From contig VHCI01000012.1 in assembly GCA_016871775.1 (NCBI GenBank), forward strand, positions 1 to 46,669: DNA of 46,669 nt, in the 5' to 3' direction. The stretch is from Verrucomicrobiota bacterium (GTDB taxonomy: Bacteria; Verrucomicrobiota; Verrucomicrobiia; Opitutales; Opitutaceae). This document shows positions 14,243 to 23,264 of the stretch, in pieces. Positions within the stretch are counted from its first letter, which is position 1; each line of letters opens with the position of its first letter. The translations under genes were made by a program, and so were the position numbers. The notes beneath the pieces are model-generated. The model was not told the DNA's origin, searched no databases, and saw only the letters and a program-made list of their open reading frames with translations.

Positions 14243-16150
14243 TCACCAGTCTTTGCCCGTCTTCCGGGCGGGTTTGCGATCGCCTTCCATCAGTTGAAAC
14301 AGCTGCGCCGGGGAATCCTGCGCCCGGAGTTGGTCGAGTTTCTGCAGGGGCAGGGCCAGCGCCGGGTTGGAGGCCTCGGGTGGCGGACCCTCCTTGCGTT
14401 CCGGCTGGCCACCGACCTTCTGGGTCGGCTCCGGCGGCGGGGCGGGCTGCTCCTCGCGGTTGAGGTCGCCGAGCGCGGGATCTTGGTCCGGTTGCGCTTC
14501 CCCTGGCGGGGAGTCCTTGCCCGGGCTCTTCTCCGGCTGCGATTGCTGGTCCGGCGGGGGCTGTCCTTGGTCGCGCTCGGGCGGCTGCTGGTCCGGAGGC
14601 GTTTCGCCCGGGGAGGACTTCTGCTGTGGGGGGGATTCCTTCTTCTGGTTCTTGTCCTGTTCCTGCTTGGGCGGGGGCTGGTCCGGTTTCTCCTCCGGCG
14701 GCGGTTCCGGGGGCTTGGCCAGCAATTCCTCGAGCTCGGTGCGCAGGCGGGTCCAATCGGCGGTCCCGGCCTCGAGCTTCTGCCCGAGAGCGACCGCCTC
14801 AAGGGCGTCCTGCACCGGGCCTTCGGGGATCGGTTGGCCGCCGGACTTCAGCTGCGAGCCCCAGGTGATTGTTTCCCGGCCAAGTTCCGCCCAGTCGCGC
14901 GCGCGGTGCTCCGGAGCGGCGGCGAGGCGGCCGACCATCCGGCCAAGCGGGGAGGGCGGCGGCGCCTCGGGCGCGGTGGGGGCGGAGGCCGCGGCTGGTC
15001 CAGGAGCCGCCGCGGGAGGCGGAGCTAAATCCTCGCGCCGGGCCGCGGCGGGAGCGGGGGCCGGCGCGGCCAGCAGGGTGGCGAGCAAAAGGGCGGTGGC
15101 CGCGGCCGCGGCGGGCCGCGGGGTCGGGTGGCGGAGGGGGAGGTCGCGAGGCTTGGGGCGCACGGGGAATTCGGTCAAGAAACTGACCAACAGGCACCAC
15201 AAAGCGAGCGCCAGCGGCCACTGGTACCGCTCCACCTGGCGCACGGTTTTTCGCTCGGCGAATCGCCCGCGTTGGCCGCGCTCCACTGTCTCGCGCAGCA
15301 GCGCCGAGAGGTCCAGCCACGCGCTGGCGTCCCGGTAGGTGCCGCCGGTGACGCGCGCCAGCTCCTGCAGGGTCGAGGTCTCAAGGCGGGACATCACCAC
15401 GGCCCCGCGCTCGTCCTTTACCAGTCCGCCGGTGCCGTCCGGGATCATCCCGCCGGCCGAGGTTCCGACGCCGAGGGAGAGCACGCGAATCTCCCTCCGC
15501 GCGAGTTCGGTGATCCGGTCCTTCCAGCGTTCATCCGTCGCCTCGCCGTCGCTGAGCACCACGAGGAAGCGGTCGGCCGCGGCGGTGGCGCCGAAGGCCT
15601 GGAGGGAGGCGTCGAGGAGCGCGCCGTAATTGCTTCCCCCCTGCGGCAGGAAGTCCGGGTTCAGCGCCGGGAGGAATTCTCGGAGGATTTCGTAATCCGC
15701 GCTAAGCGGGGCCTGCAAGAAGGCGGTTCCCGCGAACACAACTAGCCCGACCCGCTCGCCCGCCAGTTTTTCGAGCAGGGACTGGATCAGCAGCTTGGCG
15801 CGTTCGAGCCGCGAGGGCTTCACGTCGGGGGTGAGCATCGACCGGGAGAGGTCCACCGCGAGGAGGATCTCGCGGGCCTGGTCGAAGACCGGTTCCTCGA
15901 TGCGTCCCCACTGAGGGCGGGCGAGCGCGAGCACGGCGAGAGTGAGCCCCGCGGCCAGCCACCAGCGCAGGCGGCGGCCGGTCCGGGGGGCCGCGTCCGC
16001 CGGCGCGAGGCGGAGCCCGGCCGCGCCCGCCTCCGCCCGCAGGATGCGCGGGCGGGCCATGTCCGCGGCCGCGCGCGTGCGCCGGTCGAGCACCAGCAGC
16101 AGCACCGGCGCGGCCAGCAGCCAAAGGAGGGCGGGAAGGGCGAAGGTCAC
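14243..16150 (-). CDS. BatB-like VWA membrane protein with BatC-like C-terminal extension
   Basis: This 635-residue protein starts with GTG at 16150, fixed by a GTGA overlap with the batA stop. Two N-terminal membrane segments (1-20, 62-78) are followed by a von Willebrand A domain with MIDAS motif D100-L-S102-R-S104 and a downstream LSDGEATD. A third membrane segment lies near 330. The C-terminal half contains a putative TPR/helical stretch and a long P/Q/K/E-rich disordered tract (about 450-600), as in BatC. A BatB-BatC fusion is therefore the best reading, though the helical part was judged by eye. The metal-binding VWA domain and the membrane topology suggest a periplasmic or membrane complex with BatA. 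Confidence 0.88.
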   Translation of the reverse strand: MTFALPALLWLLAAPVLLLVLDRRTRAAADMARPRILRAEAGAAGLRLAPADAAPRTGRRLRWWLAAGLTLAVLALARPQWGRIEEPVFDQAREILLAVDLSRSMLTPDVKPSRLERAKLLIQSLLEKLAGERVGLVVFAGTAFLQAPLSADYEILREFLPALNPDFLPQGGSNYGALLDASLQAFGATAAADRFLVVLSDGEATDERWKDRITELARREIRVLSLGVGTSAGGMIPDGTGGLVKDERGAVVMSRLETSTLQELARVTGGTYRDASAWLDLSALLRETVERGQRGRFAERKTVRQVERYQWPLALALWCLLVSFLTEFPVRPKPRDLPLRHPTPRPAAAAATALLLATLLAAPAPAPAAARREDLAPPPAAAPGPAAASAPTAPEAPPPSPLGRMVGRLAAAPEHRARDWAELGRETITWGSQLKSGGQPIPEGPVQDALEAVALGQKLEAGTADWTRLRTELEELLAKPPEPPPEEKPDQPPPKQEQDKNQKKESPPQQKSSPGETPPDQQPPERDQGQPPPDQQSQPEKSPGKDSPPGEAQPDQDPALGDLNREEQPAPPPEPTQKVGGQPERKEGPPPEASNPALALPLQKLDQLRAQDSPAQLFQLMEGDRKPARKTGKDW

Positions 16151-17166
16151 GCGGCCACCTCCCGGCGGAACGGCGGGCGCGCCGCAGCGGCCCCGAGCGC
16201 GAGCAGGCCGAGGCCCGGCCACGCGGCCCACGCGAAGAGCTCCGTCGTCACCAAGTAGCTCTTGGCCTGGAATTCGATCTTCTGCGCCCGGTCGATGGCG
16301 CGGAACGCGGACTCGATCGTGCCCGTGTCCGCCGCGCGGAAGAAGCCTCCGCCCGTCTGGTTCGCGATCTCCCGCAGGGTGCCCTCGTCGAGGTCCGACA
16401 GCATCCGCCGGTAAGTGACCTTGCGGCCCTGGTCGTCGTAGACCGGGACGGGCACGTAGCCCTCCTTACCGGAGCCGATGGTGTAGATCGGAACGCCGCG
16501 GGACTTAGCGATCTCGGCCGCCTGGAGCGGCTGCAGCGCGCCGCGGTTGTTCGCGCCGTCCGTCATCAGCACCACGAAGGCCCCGATGCGGCGGCCCGCG
16601 GCGTCCTTGCGCGCCTGCTCCAGCCGGGTTAGGGCTACGCCGAGCCCGTCCCCGATCGCGGTGCCGTCTTCAATCATCCCGATGCGGACTCGCGCCAGCT
16701 GCCGCGCGAGCCAGTCGTGGTCGAAGGTGAGCGGGGCCATCGTGTAGGCGCGGCCGGAGAAAAGGACGATCCCGATGCGGTCCGTCGGCCGCCGCTCGAT
16801 GAAGGCCTGGATCACGGGCTTGATCGCCTGCAGACGGTTGATGCGCTCCCCGTCCTTTTCAAAGTCCTCGGCCCGCATCGAGGTCGAGAGGTCGATCGCG
16901 AGGACGATGTCGTAGCCCTCGGAACGCACCTCGCGCCGGTCTTCCACGCGCTGGGGCCGGGCGAGGGCGACCACGAGTAGGGCGAGCCCTGCGAGGGCGA
17001 GCGCCGCGGGCCAACGGCCGGGGGCAGCAAGGGAGGGGCGGTGCCACGCGGCCGCAAAGGGCACGAGCAGCACCGGCACGCGCCGCCGGCCTCGTAGCCA
17101 AACGACGAGCGGCAGCGCGAGCAGCGCCAGCAGCCAGAGCGGGTCCGCGAGGGTGAGGCGGCCCAT
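16147..17166 (-). CDS. BatA-like VWA domain membrane protein
   Basis: This 339-residue protein has two N-terminal hydrophobic segments (about 8-25 and 52-70), a von Willebrand A domain with an intact MIDAS (D92-L-S94-T-S96) and MTDGANNRG downstream, and a C-terminal membrane segment. This is the canonical BatA layout. In the Bat operon it is expected to assemble with BatB through metal-dependent VWA contacts. It starts four bases after the DUF58 gene stop and overlaps batB by four bases, so the genes are translationally coupled. The exact client of Bat complexes is not known. Confidence 0.9.
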   Translation of the reverse strand: MGRLTLADPLWLLALLALPLVVWLRGRRRVPVLLVPFAAAWHRPSLAAPGRWPAALALAGLALLVVALARPQRVEDRREVRSEGYDIVLAIDLSTSMRAEDFEKDGERINRLQAIKPVIQAFIERRPTDRIGIVLFSGRAYTMAPLTFDHDWLARQLARVRIGMIEDGTAIGDGLGVALTRLEQARKDAAGRRIGAFVVLMTDGANNRGALQPLQAAEIAKSRGVPIYTIGSGKEGYVPVPVYDDQGRKVTYRRMLSDLDEGTLREIANQTGGGFFRAADTGTIESAFRAIDRAQKIEFQAKSYLVTTELFAWAAWPGLGLLALGAAAARPPFRREVAA

Positions 17167-17170
17167 CGGT

Positions 17171-18103
17171 TTAGCCCCGCCCCGGATTCATCCGGGCGTG
17201 GAAGAAGCGCACTAGTGCGTCGAGCCGGTTCTCCCCGGTGCCGACGGCGAGGCGCGTGAGCGGGTCGGGGAACAGGGTCTGCCAAGCGCGCTCCCGCGCG
17301 GCCACCCACGCAGCGTGCGCGGCCTGCTCCGCCGCACCCCCATCGATCGTGACCAGCCGCCCTGCGACTGCGTCGTAGGCCGCGAACGGTTCCCCCGCTG
17401 GTAACTGCCGATCCCACGGATCGTCCACGCGAAATCCCATCGTCTGGTAGCGCCGCTGCAGCACGCTCCAGCCCTCGGGGCGCGGGTCGTCGCCGGACCC
17501 GCGCGCGAACGGGGGGAAATCCCCCAGCCAGATCAGGATGCTGTGCCTCGGCGCCGCACGGGCGAGGAATCGCCAGGGCGGCGCTGGCGCCGGCGCGTCG
17601 GGCGGAGGGGCCGGCCGGGCCAGCAGCGACGCTGCCAGCTGCAGGATCCGCCCGCGGCCGCGCACCGGCTCCCGCACGTCGTTGCCCCCGGGCGCCGCGT
17701 GCACGAAACCCACCCGGTCCCGGTTCACCGCGCCCAGCAGCATCACCAGCCCCGCCAGCTCGAGCAGTGCCTCCCGCCGCGACTGCGCCCCGGACCCGAA
17801 GCCCAGCGAGGGCGAATCTTCCAGTACCAGCAGCACGGTGACTTCCCGCTCCTCGACGAACTTCTTCCGGTACGGCTCCCCGAGGCGTGCGGTTACGTTC
17901 CAGTCGATGTCGCGCACGTCGTCCCCGAACGCGTACTTCACCACCTGATCAAATTCCATCCCCCGGCCCCGGAAGGCGGAGCGGTACTCGCCGCTCAGCA
18001 TCGCCTCCACCGCGTGGCGTACCCGCCACTCCAGCCTGCGCAACGCGGCCAGCGGCGCGGCGGCGGCTGGGGCAGGAGGGGCGGCGGGGGGGGCGGCGGG
18101 CAT
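17171..18103 (-). CDS. DUF58 domain-containing protein
   Basis: This 310-residue protein has the diagnostic DUF58 core: EFDQVVKYAFGDDVRDIDWN near 50-70, then RLGEPYRKKFVEEREVTVLL. This family is a degenerate VWA-like fold and is nearly always encoded beside MoxR ATPases. The N-terminus is Ala/Pro rich and probably disordered. It sits between moxR and batA with spacers of ten and four bases, so the whole set is one operon. It probably acts as an adaptor or co-chaperone with MoxR; this is a family-level inference. Confidence 0.9.
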   Translation of the reverse strand: MPAAPPAAPPAPAAAAPLAALRRLEWRVRHAVEAMLSGEYRSAFRGRGMEFDQVVKYAFGDDVRDIDWNVTARLGEPYRKKFVEEREVTVLLVLEDSPSLGFGSGAQSRREALLELAGLVMLLGAVNRDRVGFVHAAPGGNDVREPVRGRGRILQLAASLLARPAPPPDAPAPAPPWRFLARAAPRHSILIWLGDFPPFARGSGDDPRPEGWSVLQRRYQTMGFRVDDPWDRQLPAGEPFAAYDAVAGRLVTIDGGAAEQAAHAAWVAARERAWQTLFPDPLTRLAVGTGENRLDALVRFFHARMNPGRG

Positions 18104-18113
18104 CTGCGGGCGC

Positions 18114-19076
18114 CTAGACGGCGGGCACCGCGGTGCGGGTGATCACGTCCGCCACGAGCTTGTCCGCCGTGATCTCTGCGGCCTCGGCCTCGTAAGTCAG
18201 GCCGATCCGGTGCCGTAGGATGTCTGGTGCGAGTTCCTGAATCAGCCCGGGGGAAACGTGGTCCTCGCCTCGCAGCCACGCCAGCGCCCGTCCCGCCTGG
18301 TAGAGCGCGATCGAGGCCCGGGGCGACGCCCCGTAGGACAGGTGTCGCCGCGGCGCCGCAACGTCCGCCAGCGCCCGCGTCCCGCGCACCAGCGCGAGGA
18401 TGTACCCCTGCACTGCCGGCGAGAGATGGATCCCGTCGACCTCCGCCCGGAGCGCGAGCAGCTCGTCCCCGTTGGACACTGCCGCGAGCGCCGGCTGGCG
18501 CGTCACCTGGCCCCACCGCTGCAGCATCGCCGACTCCTCGGCGGCGCTTGGGTAGTCGACAAGTAGCTTGAACAGGAAACGGTCGGTCTGCGCCTCCGGC
18601 AGCGGGTACGTGCCCTCCTGCTCCACCGGGTTCTGAGTCGCCATCACGAAGAACGGCCGCGGCAGGGCGTGGGTCTGGCCGCCCAAGGTCACCTGCCGCT
18701 CCTGCATCCCCTCAAGCAAGGCGCTCTGCACCTTCGCCGGGGCCCGATTGATTTCGTCCGCCAGCACCAAGTTGGCGAAGATCGGCCCGCGGTGGGCGGT
18801 GAACTCTCCCGTCTTCGGCTGGAAGATCATCGTGCCCACCACGTCGCTCGGCAGCAGGTCTGGAGTGAACTGGATTCGCTCAAACTGCACCCCAAGGGCT
18901 GTGCCGAGCGACTTCACCAGCAGGGTCTTCGCCAGCCCGGGCATGCCCTCGAGCAACACGTGGCCGTTGGCTAGTAAGGCCACTAGCAGGCGTTCGACGA
19001 CGGCGTCTTGGCCGACGACGGCCTTGCCGATTTCAGCGCGGAGTTTCTGGGACCAGGCGGGACCGTTGGGCGGCAT
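18114..19076 (-). CDS. moxR: MoxR family AAA+ ATPase
   Basis: This 320-residue AAA+ protein has a Walker A GMPGLAKT at 44-51, a Walker B LVLADEIN at 103-110, the following NRAPAKVQSALLEGMQE block, and the sensor and lid region typical of MoxR (ATQNPVEQEGTYPLPEAQTDRF). Length is normal. MoxR ATPases act as chaperone-like remodellers for VWA-domain partners, which are encoded immediately downstream (DUF58, BatA, BatB). An 83-base gap separates it from the LuxR-type regulator gene upstream, which is enough for its own promoter; whether the regulator operon reads through is unknown. Confidence 0.94.
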   Translation of the reverse strand: MPPNGPAWSQKLRAEIGKAVVGQDAVVERLLVALLANGHVLLEGMPGLAKTLLVKSLGTALGVQFERIQFTPDLLPSDVVGTMIFQPKTGEFTAHRGPIFANLVLADEINRAPAKVQSALLEGMQERQVTLGGQTHALPRPFFVMATQNPVEQEGTYPLPEAQTDRFLFKLLVDYPSAAEESAMLQRWGQVTRQPALAAVSNGDELLALRAEVDGIHLSPAVQGYILALVRGTRALADVAAPRRHLSYGASPRASIALYQAGRALAWLRGEDHVSPGLIQELAPDILRHRIGLTYEAEAAEITADKLVADVITRTAVPAV

Positions 19077-19159: not shown

Positions 19160-19903
19160 TCAGGCCGCCACCGGCTCGTCCGTCCGCCGGCGCGGCTGCC
19201 GCGGGCGGTAGGCGGCCGCGAAAAGCGCGAATCCCGGCCGCTCCACGCCGTCGGGAGTGAAACGCACGTACCCCTTCTGCGCCGCCATCCGGATCAGCGC
19301 GCCGCGGTGCTGCACCCCCAGCTTCCGGTGCAGGTCCCGCCGCACCGAGGAGATGGTCGCCGGGCTGAGCCGCAGCAGTTCCGCCGCCTCGTCGTCATCG
19401 CACCCCGCCCCGATGACGCTTAGCACGAGCTGCTCAAAGTCCGTCAGCAGCCGGAACAGCGCCGTGGGCGCCGCCAAGATCTGCCGCAACTGGCCCTGCA
19501 CCGAGGGGCTCCAGGACCGCTGCCCCGCGAGCACCCGCTCCAACGCCGGGCGGAAGGCCCCGGGCTCCTCCGTGGCGGCGTCGAACACCCCCTCCACCGC
19601 AAGGGTCCGCAGGGCCGAAAGGGTCCGGTAGGCGCAGCGCAGCGTTACCACCAAGACCCTCCGGGCCCGGCGCGGCGCCCGGGTGGACTGGGCCAGTAGA
19701 TCGAGCGCGTCGCCCTCGGGCCCCTCCCCGAGACTGCCCAGCAACAGGTCCACCGGCGCCCGGTCGAGGAGCGCCCGCGCCGCGGCGATGTGCGGCGCGA
19801 CCGTGATCCGCGCCCCCGGCAGCACGGCCTCCACGTGGGCCCGGAGGGTGGCGGCGTAGAGCTGGTCCGCCTTGAGGATGATAACGGTGGGGTGCGTTTC
19901 CAT
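19160..19903 (-). CDS. LuxR/NarL-type transcription factor with degenerate receiver domain
   Basis: This 247-residue protein has a receiver-like N-terminal domain (about 5-125) and a C-terminal LuxR helix-turn-helix (LTDFEQLVLSVIGAGCDDDEAAELLRL to VRRDLHRKLGV). The receiver looks non-phosphorylatable. The N-terminal acidic pair reads KA, the phospho-acceptor region reads VDLLLGSLG with no Asp in place, and the Lys position reads FDAAT. It therefore probably works as a constitutive or ligand-controlled DNA-binding protein, or through protein contacts. It lies between an OmpR-type gene and moxR on the same strand. A small inverted repeat (CGTAAC/GTTACG, 19948-19965) lies just upstream. Confidence 0.82.
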   Translation of the reverse strand: METHPTVIILKADQLYAATLRAHVEAVLPGARITVAPHIAAARALLDRAPVDLLLGSLGEGPEGDALDLLAQSTRAPRRARRVLVVTLRCAYRTLSALRTLAVEGVFDAATEEPGAFRPALERVLAGQRSWSPSVQGQLRQILAAPTALFRLLTDFEQLVLSVIGAGCDDDEAAELLRLSPATISSVRRDLHRKLGVQHRGALIRMAAQKGYVRFTPDGVERPGFALFAAAYRPRQPRRRTDEPVAA

Positions 19904-19947
19904 GCGCGCACCGTGCCCGGTCTCGGCCCCTTCCGGAACGGGCCTGC

Positions 19948-19965
19948 CGTAACTTTTCCGTTACG
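19948..19965 (-). promoter_or_regulatory. Small inverted repeat at the junction of two regulator genes
   Basis: CGTAAC-N6-GTTACG is a perfect 6-base inverted repeat. It overlaps the stop codon of the OmpR-type gene and lies about 45 bases upstream of the LuxR-type gene. It may be a protein site or a weak hairpin; there is no T-run. Chance is not excluded. Confidence 0.3.
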
Positions 19966-20653
19966 CCCGCCGTGCGGCCCGCCGCAGCCGGTAGCCGTAC
20001 TTCGGGATCACTTCGATCCACGCGCGCGCGTCGACGCCCGCGCGGACGGCCGCGGCGCAGAGCTTGCCGAGGAGGACCCGTAGGTTGCCCGTGTCCCCTC
20101 GGAACGGCCGGCCGAGGATCTCCGCGTAGAGGAACTCGTAGGTGACGACCTCCGAGCAGAACCGTGCCAACAGCTCCGCGAGCTGCGCCTCGCGGAGCGT
20201 CAGGGTGGTCTGCTGGGCGCCGCAGCGCAGGGTCCGGTCGGCGGGGTCCAGCCGACCGCCCGCGAACGCCAGCCGCGTCGGCCTGGGCCGCGCCGCCGGG
20301 ACCGGCTCGCTCCGGAAACGCTCCAGGTAGGCCAGCAGCACCTCGATGCGCACGGGCTCCCGCAGGACGCAGTCCGCACCCAGCGCCACCATCCGAGCCT
20401 CCACCTCCCCGCTGGTGCCCGCCGGCACCAGCACCAGCCGCCGGCAGCGCGCGTCCGCCAGTACCGCGAGCACCTCCTCGGCGAAGCCGTCCCGCAGGGT
20501 GCGTCGGACCACGGCCACCCGCGGCCGCAGCCGGGGAATCCGCCGCCGCGCCGCGGCGACTGTCGCGCAGGCCTCGGCAACCCATCCCCGGCCCGCGCAC
20601 AGCTCGGCTAGGACGGATCCCTCGCGCTCCGCGCTGTCGACCAGAAGGATCAT
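19961..20653 (-). CDS. OmpR-type winged-helix regulator with degenerate receiver
   Basis: This 230-residue protein has a receiver-like domain (1-110) and a C-terminal OmpR/PhoB winged helix (about 130-225, with LTLREAQLAELLARF, GNLRVLLGKLC and WIEVIPKYGYRL). The receiver keeps D6, but the phospho-acceptor strand reads VAVVRRTLRDG with arginine where Asp is expected (R50). The conserved Lys-Pro reads E99-P100. Phosphotransfer is therefore unlikely. The start at 20653 is chosen as the first residue of the receiver fold; a longer extension is shadow sequence. It begins eight bases after the upstream receiver gene ends, consistent with one transcript. Confidence 0.82.
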   Translation of the reverse strand: MILLVDSAEREGSVLAELCAGRGWVAEACATVAAARRRIPRLRPRVAVVRRTLRDGFAEEVLAVLADARCRRLVLVPAGTSGEVEARMVALGADCVLREPVRIEVLLAYLERFRSEPVPAARPRPTRLAFAGGRLDPADRTLRCGAQQTTLTLREAQLAELLARFCSEVVTYEFLYAEILGRPFRGDTGNLRVLLGKLCAAAVRAGVDARAWIEVIPKYGYRLRRAARRA

Positions 20654-20661
20654 CGCCGGAT

Positions 20662-21882
20662 TCAGACGGGCAGCGCCAGCGCAAGGCTGAAGCGGCCCGA
20701 ATGCGGCGACACCGCCGCGCCTAGGACGCCGCGGCAGCGCCGGACCCCAGCGACGAGGCCCCGGGCCGTGATGGTCGCGAGCGGCTCGTGCTGTTCCTGC
20801 AGCCACGCCTCCAGCGCGGCGGACGTCAGCGCCGTGCCGGCCCCGGTGATGGTGATTAGCACCGCCGCGTGGCCTGCCGGCGCGTTGCGGCGGTTGTACC
20901 ACGCGAAGCTGCGGAGTGCGGGCTCGCGGAAGGCCTCCTCAAGCCGTCCCAGCGGCTCCGCCCGCACCCCTACCGTCGTCCGGCGCGGTGCGCCAGTGAG
21001 CGCCGCACCAAGCGCCGGGGTCATCATCAGCAGAAAGTCGATGCCCGAGAGCCCCCGCACCGGCAGGCCCGCGGCCCCGGGCGTAAACTCCACCGCTTTG
21101 CCCTCCTCCTCCCCCCGGCTCATGCGCAGGGCGATCCCCGCGGCGTGCCGGATACCCTCGTCCACCACCGCCGGCGAGGTATCCCGGCTGCCGTAGCCGG
21201 TGTCGAAGAATGCCTCCGTGACCGCCATCGCGGCCTCCGCCGTGCGCCGCGCCTCATCGAGCCGGCGGGTGAACTGCGCCGACCGCGGATCCGCGCGGAC
21301 CGGCGTCCCCAGCGGCGACTGCAAAGCAAGCAGCTGCGCGTGCACCGTCGTCAGAAGCCCCGCCGTCTGCCGCAGCGCGTCACGCGCCGTCTCCGAGGCC
21401 ACCAGCTCGACGTCTCGCTCGAGCAGGGCCGCCTCGCGCTCCCCGACCACGACCCCCGCCTGCCGGGCCAGGTCGTGGTCCTCTCGCCGCTGGCGGGTGC
21501 GCGCCACCCACTCGGGGATCCGCGCCTCGAAGTCCGCCTTGCCGGGCAGGGGCTTCGACAGGAAGTCATAGACCTGTAGCGGGATGGTGCGCCGCAGGTT
21601 CTCCGCGGAATCGAACGCGCTGAGCACCACGAATCCCAGCGCCGGGTCCACCTGCTGCGCCGCCTCGATAAAGATGAAGCCGTCCATCCGGGGCATATGC
21701 AGATCGGCGAGGCATAGGTCGAACCGCGTCTCCCGCAGGCGCTCGAGCCCCGCCGCCGCGTCGAAGGCGAACACCAGCTCGTGCGCGCCTCCCAGCCGCA
21801 GGCGGAGCGTCGCGTGGATCTGGCGTTCGTCGTCTACGACGAGAATCCGGGTCGGCAAAATGGCGCGGGTCGTGGAGGTCAC
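20662..21882 (-). CDS. Response regulator: intact receiver fused to a degenerate kinase-like module
   Basis: In this 406-residue protein the receiver is intact: acidic pair D17/D18, phospho-acceptor D60 (LADLHMPRMDG), S88 and K110 (SKPL). After a predicted helical linker (about 115-200) the C-terminal part resembles a histidine-kinase core without its motifs. There is a helical pair, then a block ending in ARGLVAGVRRCRGVLGAAV, with HSGRFSLALALPV at the terminus, which mimics the G2 box and last strand of a HATPase domain. No H-box histidine or N-box is seen, and there is no DNA-binding domain. It probably acts as a phospho-switch for the neighbouring kinase or for the pseudo-receiver proteins; that role is inferred from context. 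Confidence 0.75.
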   Translation of the reverse strand: MTSTTRAILPTRILVVDDERQIHATLRLRLGGAHELVFAFDAAAGLERLRETRFDLCLADLHMPRMDGFIFIEAAQQVDPALGFVVLSAFDSAENLRRTIPLQVYDFLSKPLPGKADFEARIPEWVARTRQRREDHDLARQAGVVVGEREAALLERDVELVASETARDALRQTAGLLTTVHAQLLALQSPLGTPVRADPRSAQFTRRLDEARRTAEAAMAVTEAFFDTGYGSRDTSPAVVDEGIRHAAGIALRMSRGEEEGKAVEFTPGAAGLPVRGLSGIDFLLMMTPALGAALTGAPRRTTVGVRAEPLGRLEEAFREPALRSFAWYNRRNAPAGHAAVLITITGAGTALTSAALEAWLQEQHEPLATITARGLVAGVRRCRGVLGAAVSPHSGRFSLALALPV

Positions 21883-21890
21883 GCGGGGGC

Positions 21891-23264
21891 TCAGGTTGCC
21901 GCCGCGACTGCCGCGGGGTCCACGGGCAGGTCGACGCTCAGCGTGGTCCCGGCGCCCGGCCGGCTCTCGACCGTGATCCGCCCGTGGTGCAGGTGCGCGA
22001 TGCGCTGCGAGATGGTCAGCCCCAAGCCGGCCCCCCGCACCTCCTCCCAGAGCTCCTTCGCCGTGAAGTACGGGTCAAAGATCCGCGCCCGGGTCGCTGC
22101 GTCCATCTCGCGCCCGCGGTCGATGACCCGCAGCGTGACCATCCCCGCCACCGGCCCCTCCGCGGTCAGCCACACCTCACCGCCCCGCGTGGACGCGTCG
22201 ATCCGGTCGTTCAACAGGTTCACCAGCAGCCGCTGTAGCAACACGGTGTCTGCCTGCAGCGTCCCCGCGCAGGTGCTGTGCGCGACGAGGGTGACGCCGC
22301 GGCGGGCCGCCCGCTCGACCGTCAGGCTCCGCACGGCCTCAAGCAGTCCCCTTGGCTCGACTGGGGCGTAACGCGGCGTCAGGCGATCCGGGAAGAAAAG
22401 CGCCTCCCGCAGGTAGGTCGTCATCACCTCGATCGCCCGGCTGGCCGCGCGATGCACCTCCTCCTCCGCGCTGCCCGCGGGCGCCCGCCCCTCCGTGTGC
22501 ACCAGAAACGACGAGACGGGGGTGATCAGATTCTTCAGGTCGTGGGCCAGCCCGCGGGACATCGTGGCGAGGTACTCCGTCCGCGTGCGCAAAGCGAGCT
22601 GGTCCATCAGCCGCGAACGGGAAAGAATGTTGTCGATCAGCTCTGCGGTGTGCAGCAGGCGCATCACGTCGGGGTAGGTGAAGGGCCACTCGGTGCGGCG
22701 GACGCCGATGGCGACGAGGAGATTCGGGTCGGGGCTCTCCCGCGGCGCCACGACGAGGGCCCCGGCGCCAATCTCACGCAGGAGGGCGTCGAGATCCGCG
22801 AGGGCGCGAGTGGGCCGGCGGCGCTGCAGGCTCTCCGGTGTGATCCAGCCGCCCTCGCGCAGGGCGGCGATCGCCGCGCGGTCCCGCCGGATGGTGTGGC
22901 CGCCGCCCATGTAGGCCTCGCCGCTGCGGGCGAGGATCACGGCAGCTGGAGCGTCGTAGCGCGAGGCCAGCAGGGTCTCGAACTCGGCGGTGAGCCGCGC
23001 GGTGTCTGCCTCCCGCATCGCCACCTGCAGCACCTCGGACCGCAGCGCGCGGATCCGGGATGAGTCATCGAGCCCGAACCATCGCCGCATCCGCGCATCA
23101 AGCCAGAAGGTTGCCGAACCGCACAGGAACATGCTCAGCGGCCAGGCGAGGTGCGGCGGGAGGCTAGGGGCGATGACGGTCACGATCAGCCAAGCTGCGA
23201 AAGTTAGAATCGCGACAAGGGCTGTCCTGTGAAAGATCGCGAAGGAGATGGGTTTTGCGTTCAC
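21891..23264 (-). CDS. Membrane-associated sensor histidine kinase
   Basis: This 457-residue protein has two N-terminal membrane segments (about 14-33 and 39-55), a GAF-like sensory region (about 80-215), and a DHp H-box SRGLAHDLKNLITP with the phospho-acceptor H241. The HATPase domain follows, with an N-box NLLNDRIDAS, a partly altered G1 (DRGREMD), an F-box IFDPYF, and a G2 GAGLGLTIS. It is likely active, and it resembles soluble-core kinases such as PrsK of PEP-CTERM systems, though no exosortase gene is seen here. The start is a GTG at 23264. It is the first gene of a minus-strand regulator block leading into the Bat operon. A 16-base palindrome lies about 110 bases upstream. Confidence 0.85.
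   Translation of the reverse strand: MNAKPISFAIFHRTALVAILTFAAWLIVTVIAPSLPPHLAWPLSMFLCGSATFWLDARMRRWFGLDDSSRIRALRSEVLQVAMREADTARLTAEFETLLASRYDAPAAVILARSGEAYMGGGHTIRRDRAAIAALREGGWITPESLQRRRPTRALADLDALLREIGAGALVVAPRESPDPNLLVAIGVRRTEWPFTYPDVMRLLHTAELIDNILSRSRLMDQLALRTRTEYLATMSRGLAHDLKNLITPVSSFLVHTEGRAPAGSAEEEVHRAASRAIEVMTTYLREALFFPDRLTPRYAPVEPRGLLEAVRSLTVERAARRGVTLVAHSTCAGTLQADTVLLQRLLVNLLNDRIDASTRGGEVWLTAEGPVAGMVTLRVIDRGREMDAATRARIFDPYFTAKELWEEVRGAGLGLTISQRIAHLHHGRITVESRPGAGTTLSVDLPVDPAAVAAAT

Follow-up and report, generated by a model that had tools for sequence, protein, structure and literature searches.

The stretch of DNA analyzed here, which we refer to as the window, spans 46,669 nucleotides from a Verrucomicrobiota bacterium of the family Opitutaceae and carries on its (-) strand four consecutive genes, HK, REC, OMP, and LUX. 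HK (21891..23264) encodes a histidine kinase; REC (20662..21882) encodes a receiver protein of 406 aa in which all receiver phosphorylation residues are present; OMP (19961..20653) encodes an OmpR/PhoB-type winged-helix regulator of 230 aa with a charge-inverted pseudo-receiver; and LUX (19160..19903) encodes a NarL/LuxR-type regulator of 247 aa consisting of a pseudo-receiver and a GerE helix-turn-helix. The coordinates and reading frames that the initial annotation gave for OMP and LUX, both on the (-) strand, were correct on recheck. It had also pointed to pseudo-receivers of two families adjoining an intact receiver protein. This arrangement is correct and conserved, but the "intact receiver protein" also carries a half that resembles a pseudo-histidine kinase. 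We found the order HK-REC-OMP-LUX in the window and in 14 of 22 OMP-bearing stretches from relatives (L112-L133); in the others, LUX, an HK adjacent to REC (which is not always present), or REC itself is missing. Among 252 genomes of the family, REC occurs in 26 and OMP in 27, namely the same 26 plus G267. LUX orthologs (E<1e-85) were detected in 21 of the 26 REC genomes; they are unlinked in two of these (G002 and G022), and in G003 OMP is on a different contig from REC-LUX. It is OMP, not LUX, that nearly always accompanies REC. In G267, OMP and the sequence box described below are present without REC or HK on the contig, no REC was found genome-wide at E<=1e-25, and OMP follows the same two neighbors (compared by eye) that precede HK-REC-OMP in relatives, which indicates that OMP can persist without REC. 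Genes in relatives were called with a simple codon-score script of our own; Pfam was consulted for ten genes located near boxes or LUX copies, and the other names used for relatives' genes (RmuC-like, REC-kinase-like, and further conjugation parts) are our own reading of the sequences.

The reading, made earlier from the window, that OMP has Arg at the acceptor-Asp site (Arg50, codon CGA, 20506-20504, (-) strand) and Glu at the Lys site (Glu99, codon GAG, 20359-20357, (-) strand) was borne out by the codons, by a profile alignment to KdpE, and by an AlphaFold2 model. In the alignment, built from 24 OMP orthologs and gap-free around both sites, Arg50 and Glu99 fall on the acceptor Asp and the Lys of KdpE; in the model (pLDDT 90.8), residues 50 and 98 are the last of strands 3 and 5, respectively, and Glu99 directly precedes Pro100. 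Full-length OMP matched the KdpE structure 4kny_A with Z 19.5 and rmsd 5.0 over 216 residues. Foldseek matches of OMP further include CosR, RitR, and 2hqr, which we take to be HP1043, and its weak matches in NCBIfam include NblR. All 27 OMP orthologs, which come from four genera (the 24 aligned sequences, L163, L164, and the G267 copy), have Arg50 and, in place of Lys, an acid. Residue 99 is Asp in 19 and Glu in 5 of the aligned sequences, Glu being confined to the window's clade, and the positions of the acidic pair are mostly Ser-Ser. Arg50 is one of only 22 columns invariant across the 24 sequences, 19 of which are 41-54% identical to the window's, indicating that its conservation goes beyond chance. 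E85-A86-R87, R98, and P100 are invariant as well, and conservation is 0.82 in region 84-101 versus 0.63 for the whole receiver-like part; likewise, it is 0.83 in the DNA-recognition region (184-200) versus 0.67 for the entire DNA-binding domain. In the closest clade (10 pairs), dN/dS for OMP is 0.14-0.40. OMP has the fold and the winged helix of OmpR/PhoB response regulators and lacks their acceptor Asp, acidic pair, and Lys; according to model and alignment, it is a pseudo-receiver (aspartate-less receiver), with a receiver fold devoid of the acceptor Asp and the other catalytic residues. We conclude, as read from the sequences, that both pocket charges of OMP are reversed and retained.

The absence of the acceptor Asp and Lys from LUX, also suggested at the outset, was upheld: the alignments place Ser57 (codon 19735-19733, (-) strand) at the Asp site and Ala109 (codon 19579-19577, (-) strand) at the Lys site. 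Ser57 aligns with Asp60 of the neighboring REC (a weak match, probability 20%), the Gly that is usual in the LUX family at this position aligns with the acceptor Asp of RcsB, and Ala109 was placed by alignment to relatives reading ..GFVDK... Both Asp and Lys are missing in 21 of 21 LUX orthologs (19 aligned sequences plus L166 and L167); in the aligned set, residue 57 is Gly (14) or Ser (5), and residue 109 is Ser (9), Ala (7), Pro (2), or Thr (1). LUX is under strong constraint, with dN/dS of 0.07-0.12 in the same 10 pairs of the closest clade. It has the GerE domain of NarL/FixJ response regulators without their acceptor Asp and Lys, and its assignment as a pseudo-receiver is by sequence alignment. 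The DNA-binding domains of both regulators are intact, as first described: GerE scores 29.6 bits in LUX (cut-off 23.5) and is found in 19 of 19 orthologs, and Trans_reg_C scores 25.5 bits in OMP, just below its cut-off of 26.2, but is matched by 24 of 24 orthologs at E up to 0.1. The Pfam receiver family PF00072, at the same threshold of E up to 0.1, matches 0 of 19 LUX and 1 of 24 OMP sequences (E 0.051), and surveys built on PF00072 would therefore probably miss both. In a wider LUX-like group (L203-L207, L209, and L168-L170), the Asp site is Gly, with Ala in L208, and most of the more distant matches, e.g. L211-L218, still have the Asp along with a Lys motif resembling GFVDK; on this sequence comparison, the loss seen in LUX therefore probably predates the cassette. 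A comparison of the OMP and LUX receivers for shared ancestry gave no signal.

The surroundings of LUX vary. In the window's clade, LUX is directly followed on the same strand (window 14243-19076) by a moxR-type gene, a DUF58 gene, and two VWA genes, by our own reading a bat-type operon, and in the relatives L116, L118, and L119, a MOSC-domain-type gene lies between LUX and the moxR-type operon. The moxR-type gene (start 19076) is preceded in the window's clade by a conserved block, which was considered as a LUX site and dropped, as it was not seen in L116, L118, and L119. The LUX paralogs L168, L169, and L170, which have the same Gly at the Asp site, adjoin a Clp-type AAA gene and a TrbI-like conjugation gene (checked with Pfam on L168).

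REC differs from both regulators in that D17, D18, D60, S/T88, and K110 are kept in 24 of 24 sequences, and it would thus be phosphorylatable in principle; its dN/dS is 0.05-0.15 (closest clade, 10 pairs). From about residue 137 on (20662..21474, (-) strand), the predicted model shows DHp-like helices, at low confidence, and a CA-like ATPase fold (residues 234-406). The best Foldseek match of the REC model by E-value was the Leptospira REC-kinase LvrB (1.1e-13, with TM-scores of about 0.3), DivL (4q20) was also among the matches, and residues 234-406 of the model compared with the MprB ATPase domain at Z 16.8 and rmsd 2.5 over 141 aligned residues. The sequence of this half gave no such likeness: the last 268 residues of the window copy have no Pfam match, none of 21 C-terminal halves (out of 26 REC genomes) matched a kinase family at E up to 1, and a search of solved-structure sequences returned only two chance matches (E 0.83). 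Relatedness in sequence to HK or to a nearby intact REC-kinase was discarded, the profile comparisons being not significant. Further, no His in the 21 halves is invariant or 90% conserved, the best His column reaching 19 of 24, and the place of the N-box Asn is taken by Ala, Leu, or Val (in a weak alignment). Set against an LvrB-type REC-controlled histidine kinase, REC has an intact receiver and the CA-like fold, the DHp part being modeled only as low-confidence helices, and it has neither a conserved phospho-accepting His nor recognizable ATP-binding motifs. The model, with its low-confidence DHp part, thus suggests a pseudo-kinase half, similar to a kinase core but lacking what is needed to generate or transfer phosphate. 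(The REC display alignment omits L112-L114.) A separate REC-kinase-like gene lies near the cassette in L116, L117, L121, L126, L128, and L164, with the H-box His in all six and the N-box where the frame reaches it.

Compared with its orthologs, the HK of the window genome is missing the N-terminal membrane region, and in or near the ATP site it carries six changes (N353D, A354R, G386E, T402A, G406W, and F412A) at positions where its four nearest relatives agree. The frames of 11 orthologs, ten of 680-736 codons and one of 1038, were examined; by a simple scan, all 11 encode at least six hydrophobic segments, of which at least five lie ahead of the part that the window HK also has. The window frame closes 11 codons above its GTG, and no match to the earlier part (213-285 codons in 10 of 11 orthologs) was found next to the gene. 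The H-box His is still present; the N-box Asn, DxGxG, and the membrane sensor expected of an active kinase are not. In EnvZ, N-box changes of this sort abolish kinase activity. We also noted that, in the window lineage, HK and OMP (counted without the first 32 codons of HK) have accumulated 31 replacement to 25 silent codon changes versus 28 to 110 in five neighboring genes (p=4e-6). The bias recurs in the sister lineage (12 to 18 versus 9 to 67, p=0.002), indicating that faster evolution of HK and OMP is at least partly a general trend. (The HK display alignment omits L112-L114 and L125; the HK profile alignment uses 15 of 20 sequences.) Judging from its sequence, the dedicated kinase of the window genome is probably dead. 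With the membrane part absent and the ATP-site residues lost, the adjacent HK is an unlikely phosphodonor in this genome, and a negative phosphotransfer test with it would prove nothing. REC would therefore receive its input from another kinase or from small phosphodonors, or the cassette would stand at a fixed setting; the window genome, in which HK is degenerate and REC and LUX are conserved, offers a natural test case of a cassette that has no kinase of its own.

The gap between OMP and LUX contains a 17-bp tandem repeat, TTACGG-N5-TTACGG, which we refer to as the box. The window copy, TAACGGAAAAGTTACGG (consensus TTACGGAAAAATTACGG; 19947..19963, (-) strand), consists of two 6-bp direct repeats with an 11-bp period, overlaps the OMP stop codon, and lies 60 bp upstream of the LUX start. 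Two repeats 11 bp apart are the geometry of OmpR/PhoB-type sites. The window copy has 2 mismatches to the consensus, 0.02 matches being expected at up to 3 mismatches. Within 3 mismatches, the box is found upstream of 21 of 21 LUX orthologs, including the unlinked LUX genes of G002 and G022 and that of G003, where OMP is on another contig, and in 12 of the 21 it lies 59-60 bp from the LUX start codon as placed here. When 317 upstream regions of 150 bp were searched, 24 had a box with no more than 3 mismatches (21 before LUX, 2 before HlyD-type genes, and 1 before REC); the remaining 293 had none within 4 mismatches, and the reversed motif never fell below 6. The box is absent after OMP (best 6-8 mismatches) in L122, L124, L129, L132, L133, and L165, where LUX is missing or elsewhere. 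The box goes with LUX, not with OMP. Some genomes that lack a LUX ortholog have it before an HlyD-family gene (G177; G209, with 3 mismatches; and G267, where the best LUX-like match scores 46 bits) or REC (G040); in G188, it lies 64 bp after OMP, the next same-strand gene being 373 bp away, and in LUX-less G015, neither the region after OMP nor that before REC has a box (best 6 and 8 mismatches, respectively). LUX itself as the owner of the box is disfavored because the exact box persists in G177 and G188 without a LUX ortholog.

Genome-wide, the best copies of the box cluster at the cassette. All 7 exact copies in 31 genomes lie no more than 200 bp downstream of OMP, and up to 2 mismatches, the same genomes have 59 matches versus 6 for the reversed control. 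Among the 252 genomes, a copy within 1 mismatch is present in 14 of 27 OMP genomes (11 at the cassette) versus 6 of 225 others (p=1.7e-11, for genomes that are not phylogenetically independent), and the reversed control gave 4 matches; within the window's genus, the corresponding figures are 10 of 22 OMP genomes versus 1 of 5 OMP-less genomes. The G267 match led blindly to a previously unlisted OMP ortholog. A wide OMP regulon was considered and is not supported: outside the cassette, copies with up to 2 mismatches are no commoner in the OMP genomes of the genus (20 copies in 22 genomes) than in its OMP-less genomes (7 in 5), and a gapped pattern gave 19 matches in 27 OMP genomes (13 at the cassette and 6 outside) versus 16 in 225 OMP-less genomes, with 22 in 252 for the control. 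The 17-mer had no match in the literature searched. Several isolated copies were also seen. In OMP-less G103, an exact 17-bp box (L281) is followed after 8 bp by TTG and lies beside short genes; in G188, three IS200-like (RAYT-type) transposase genes (L264, L265, and L266, two of the three checked with Pfam) have the box 59-60 bp before the start, like LUX; and in two genomes from the genus (L232 and L248), one of them OMP-less, TTAGGGAAAAATTACGG is located upstream of the gene for a ribonucleotide reductase small chain.

The conserved box upstream of LUX suggests to us that OMP binds it and controls LUX, for which we consider the chances somewhat better than even. OMP would bind probably as a dimer, on the two repeats, and would control LUX most likely by activation; LUX would then control further genes. 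The conserved, operator-like box between the two genes points to a cascade from OMP to LUX, and as far as the sequences go the pair is probably such a cascade; evidence for OMP sites outside the cassette is weak. It is rather unlikely, in our judgment, that the box is instead bound by another regulator or belongs to a general promoter class. Box variants do precede genes with Pfam matches to the ribonucleotide reductase small chain (G008, with an identical form in G019, which is OMP-less), SecG (G024), NAD-dependent DNA ligase and IS200-like transposase (G188), and RecA (G040, 2 mismatches); two-mismatch copies outside the cassette are equally frequent in OMP-less genomes of the genus, OMP-less G103 has an exact copy, and in 12 of 21 LUX loci (not those of the window's clade), TTGG, which resembles a promoter -35 element, follows exactly 8 bp after the box. 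The concentration of the best copies at the cassette and their low rate in the 225 OMP-less genomes nevertheless argue against another owner, as do the OMP-less genomes G017 and G020, whose LUX paralogs have no box (best 7 and 8 mismatches). As the best explanation of the whole, to which we give an even chance, we keep to a cassette HK > REC > OMP > LUX in which phosphate chemistry ends at REC.

How OMP would be controlled within this cassette is a more tentative matter. The reading we favor, at less than an even chance, is that REC signals to OMP by contact through its pseudo-kinase half: the phosphorylation state of REC would reach OMP through contact between this half and the OMP pseudo-receiver, by the same faces that exchange phosphate in a real relay, with the Arg50-acid99 pair predicted to stand in for the usual Lys-Asp bridge. 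The main rival, only slightly less likely, is that OMP and LUX are constitutively active, with the Arg50-acid99 pair locking the receiver fold in its active state, control exerted only via the amount made, and REC and HK acting elsewhere. Constitutive activity has been proposed for other pseudo-receivers (PMC12632262), G267 keeps OMP and the box without REC or HK on the contig, and the window kinase is degenerate, yet LUX is under strong selection; against this, the 27 OMP and 26 REC genomes share 26, a coincidence that would need another reason if the two did not work together. The pseudo-receivers might also take another signal at the old phosphate pocket, such as phosphorylation of Arg50 or an anion bound by Arg50 and Arg98. 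This is improbable, as an acid at residue 99 would more simply pair with Arg50, even though Arg50, Arg87, and Arg98 are invariant in 24 OMP sequences and Maule et al. 2015, noting 63 receivers with Arg at the Asp site, raised the possibility of arginine phosphorylation (PMC4395418). That OMP and LUX are both decaying relics is very improbable. The richness of OMP and HK in amino-acid changes in the window lineage would fit decay, but the sister lineage has the same substitution bias, the frames are intact, dN/dS is at most 0.40 in OMP and lower in LUX in all pairs, the same residues are replaced in all orthologs, and the box is conserved. On conservation and dN/dS, we reject decay for OMP and LUX; it fits only the HK of the window genome. 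Contact between REC and OMP stays our preferred reading, and its fullest form is possible but doubtful: a phosphate-free second relay half, in which a phosphorylatable receiver would drive a pseudo-histidine-kinase core that passes a shape-only signal to charge-inverted OMP. The loss of His from the donor would have gone together with the loss of Asp from the acceptor, and OMP would then switch on LUX via the tandem-repeat box.

Pseudo-receivers as such are known. Like OMP and LUX, the aspartate-less or pseudo-receivers ChxR, HP1043, CosR, RitR, NblR, BldM, and WhiI have a receiver fold without a usable phosphorylation site on a DNA-binding domain; OMP differs from these in that the charge is inverted at each of the two key pocket positions, a state that does not vary among the four genera. 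PMC4395418 describes pseudo-receivers as common, with Verrucomicrobia among the richer phyla, and Arg at the Asp site as rare, the Lys site being basic in 70%. CmrRST of C. difficile shares with the cassette a kinase, a receiver protein, and a pseudo-receiver regulator in one operon (PMC12632262), but in the cassette the pseudo-receivers number two and belong to different families, half of REC resembles a pseudo-kinase, and a conserved box precedes one of the two regulators. The Leptospira Lvr relay, in which LvrA is a kinase, LvrB a REC-DHp-CA protein, and LvrC a receiver, is ordered in the same way; LvrB phosphorylates both itself, on His161, and LvrC (PMC13269768), whereas the corresponding step of the cassette has no conserved His and no acceptor Asp. 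In the Caulobacter pseudokinase DivL, a kinase core is repurposed to read the state of a receiver, as proposed here for REC, but DivL reads a phosphorylated receiver and the pseudo-kinase of the cassette would talk to pseudo-receivers (PMC4211667). Among the titles and abstract openings of the literature on Opitutaceae response regulators, none concerned this cassette. What is new here is the conserved double charge reversal, the paired absence of His from the C-terminal half of REC and of Asp from OMP, and the predicted cascade. The pseudo-kinase half of REC is a natural contact candidate for OMP, and if the contact model is true, the cassette would show how both sides of a phosphorelay step can be stripped of their chemistry while a signal is still passed. 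With a candidate partner, a predicted DNA target, and unusual conserved pocket residues, the cassette offers a concrete case for asking how "dead" switches are controlled, and its natural variants include cassettes with no LUX, with a degenerate kinase, with OMP moved away, and with OMP but no REC.
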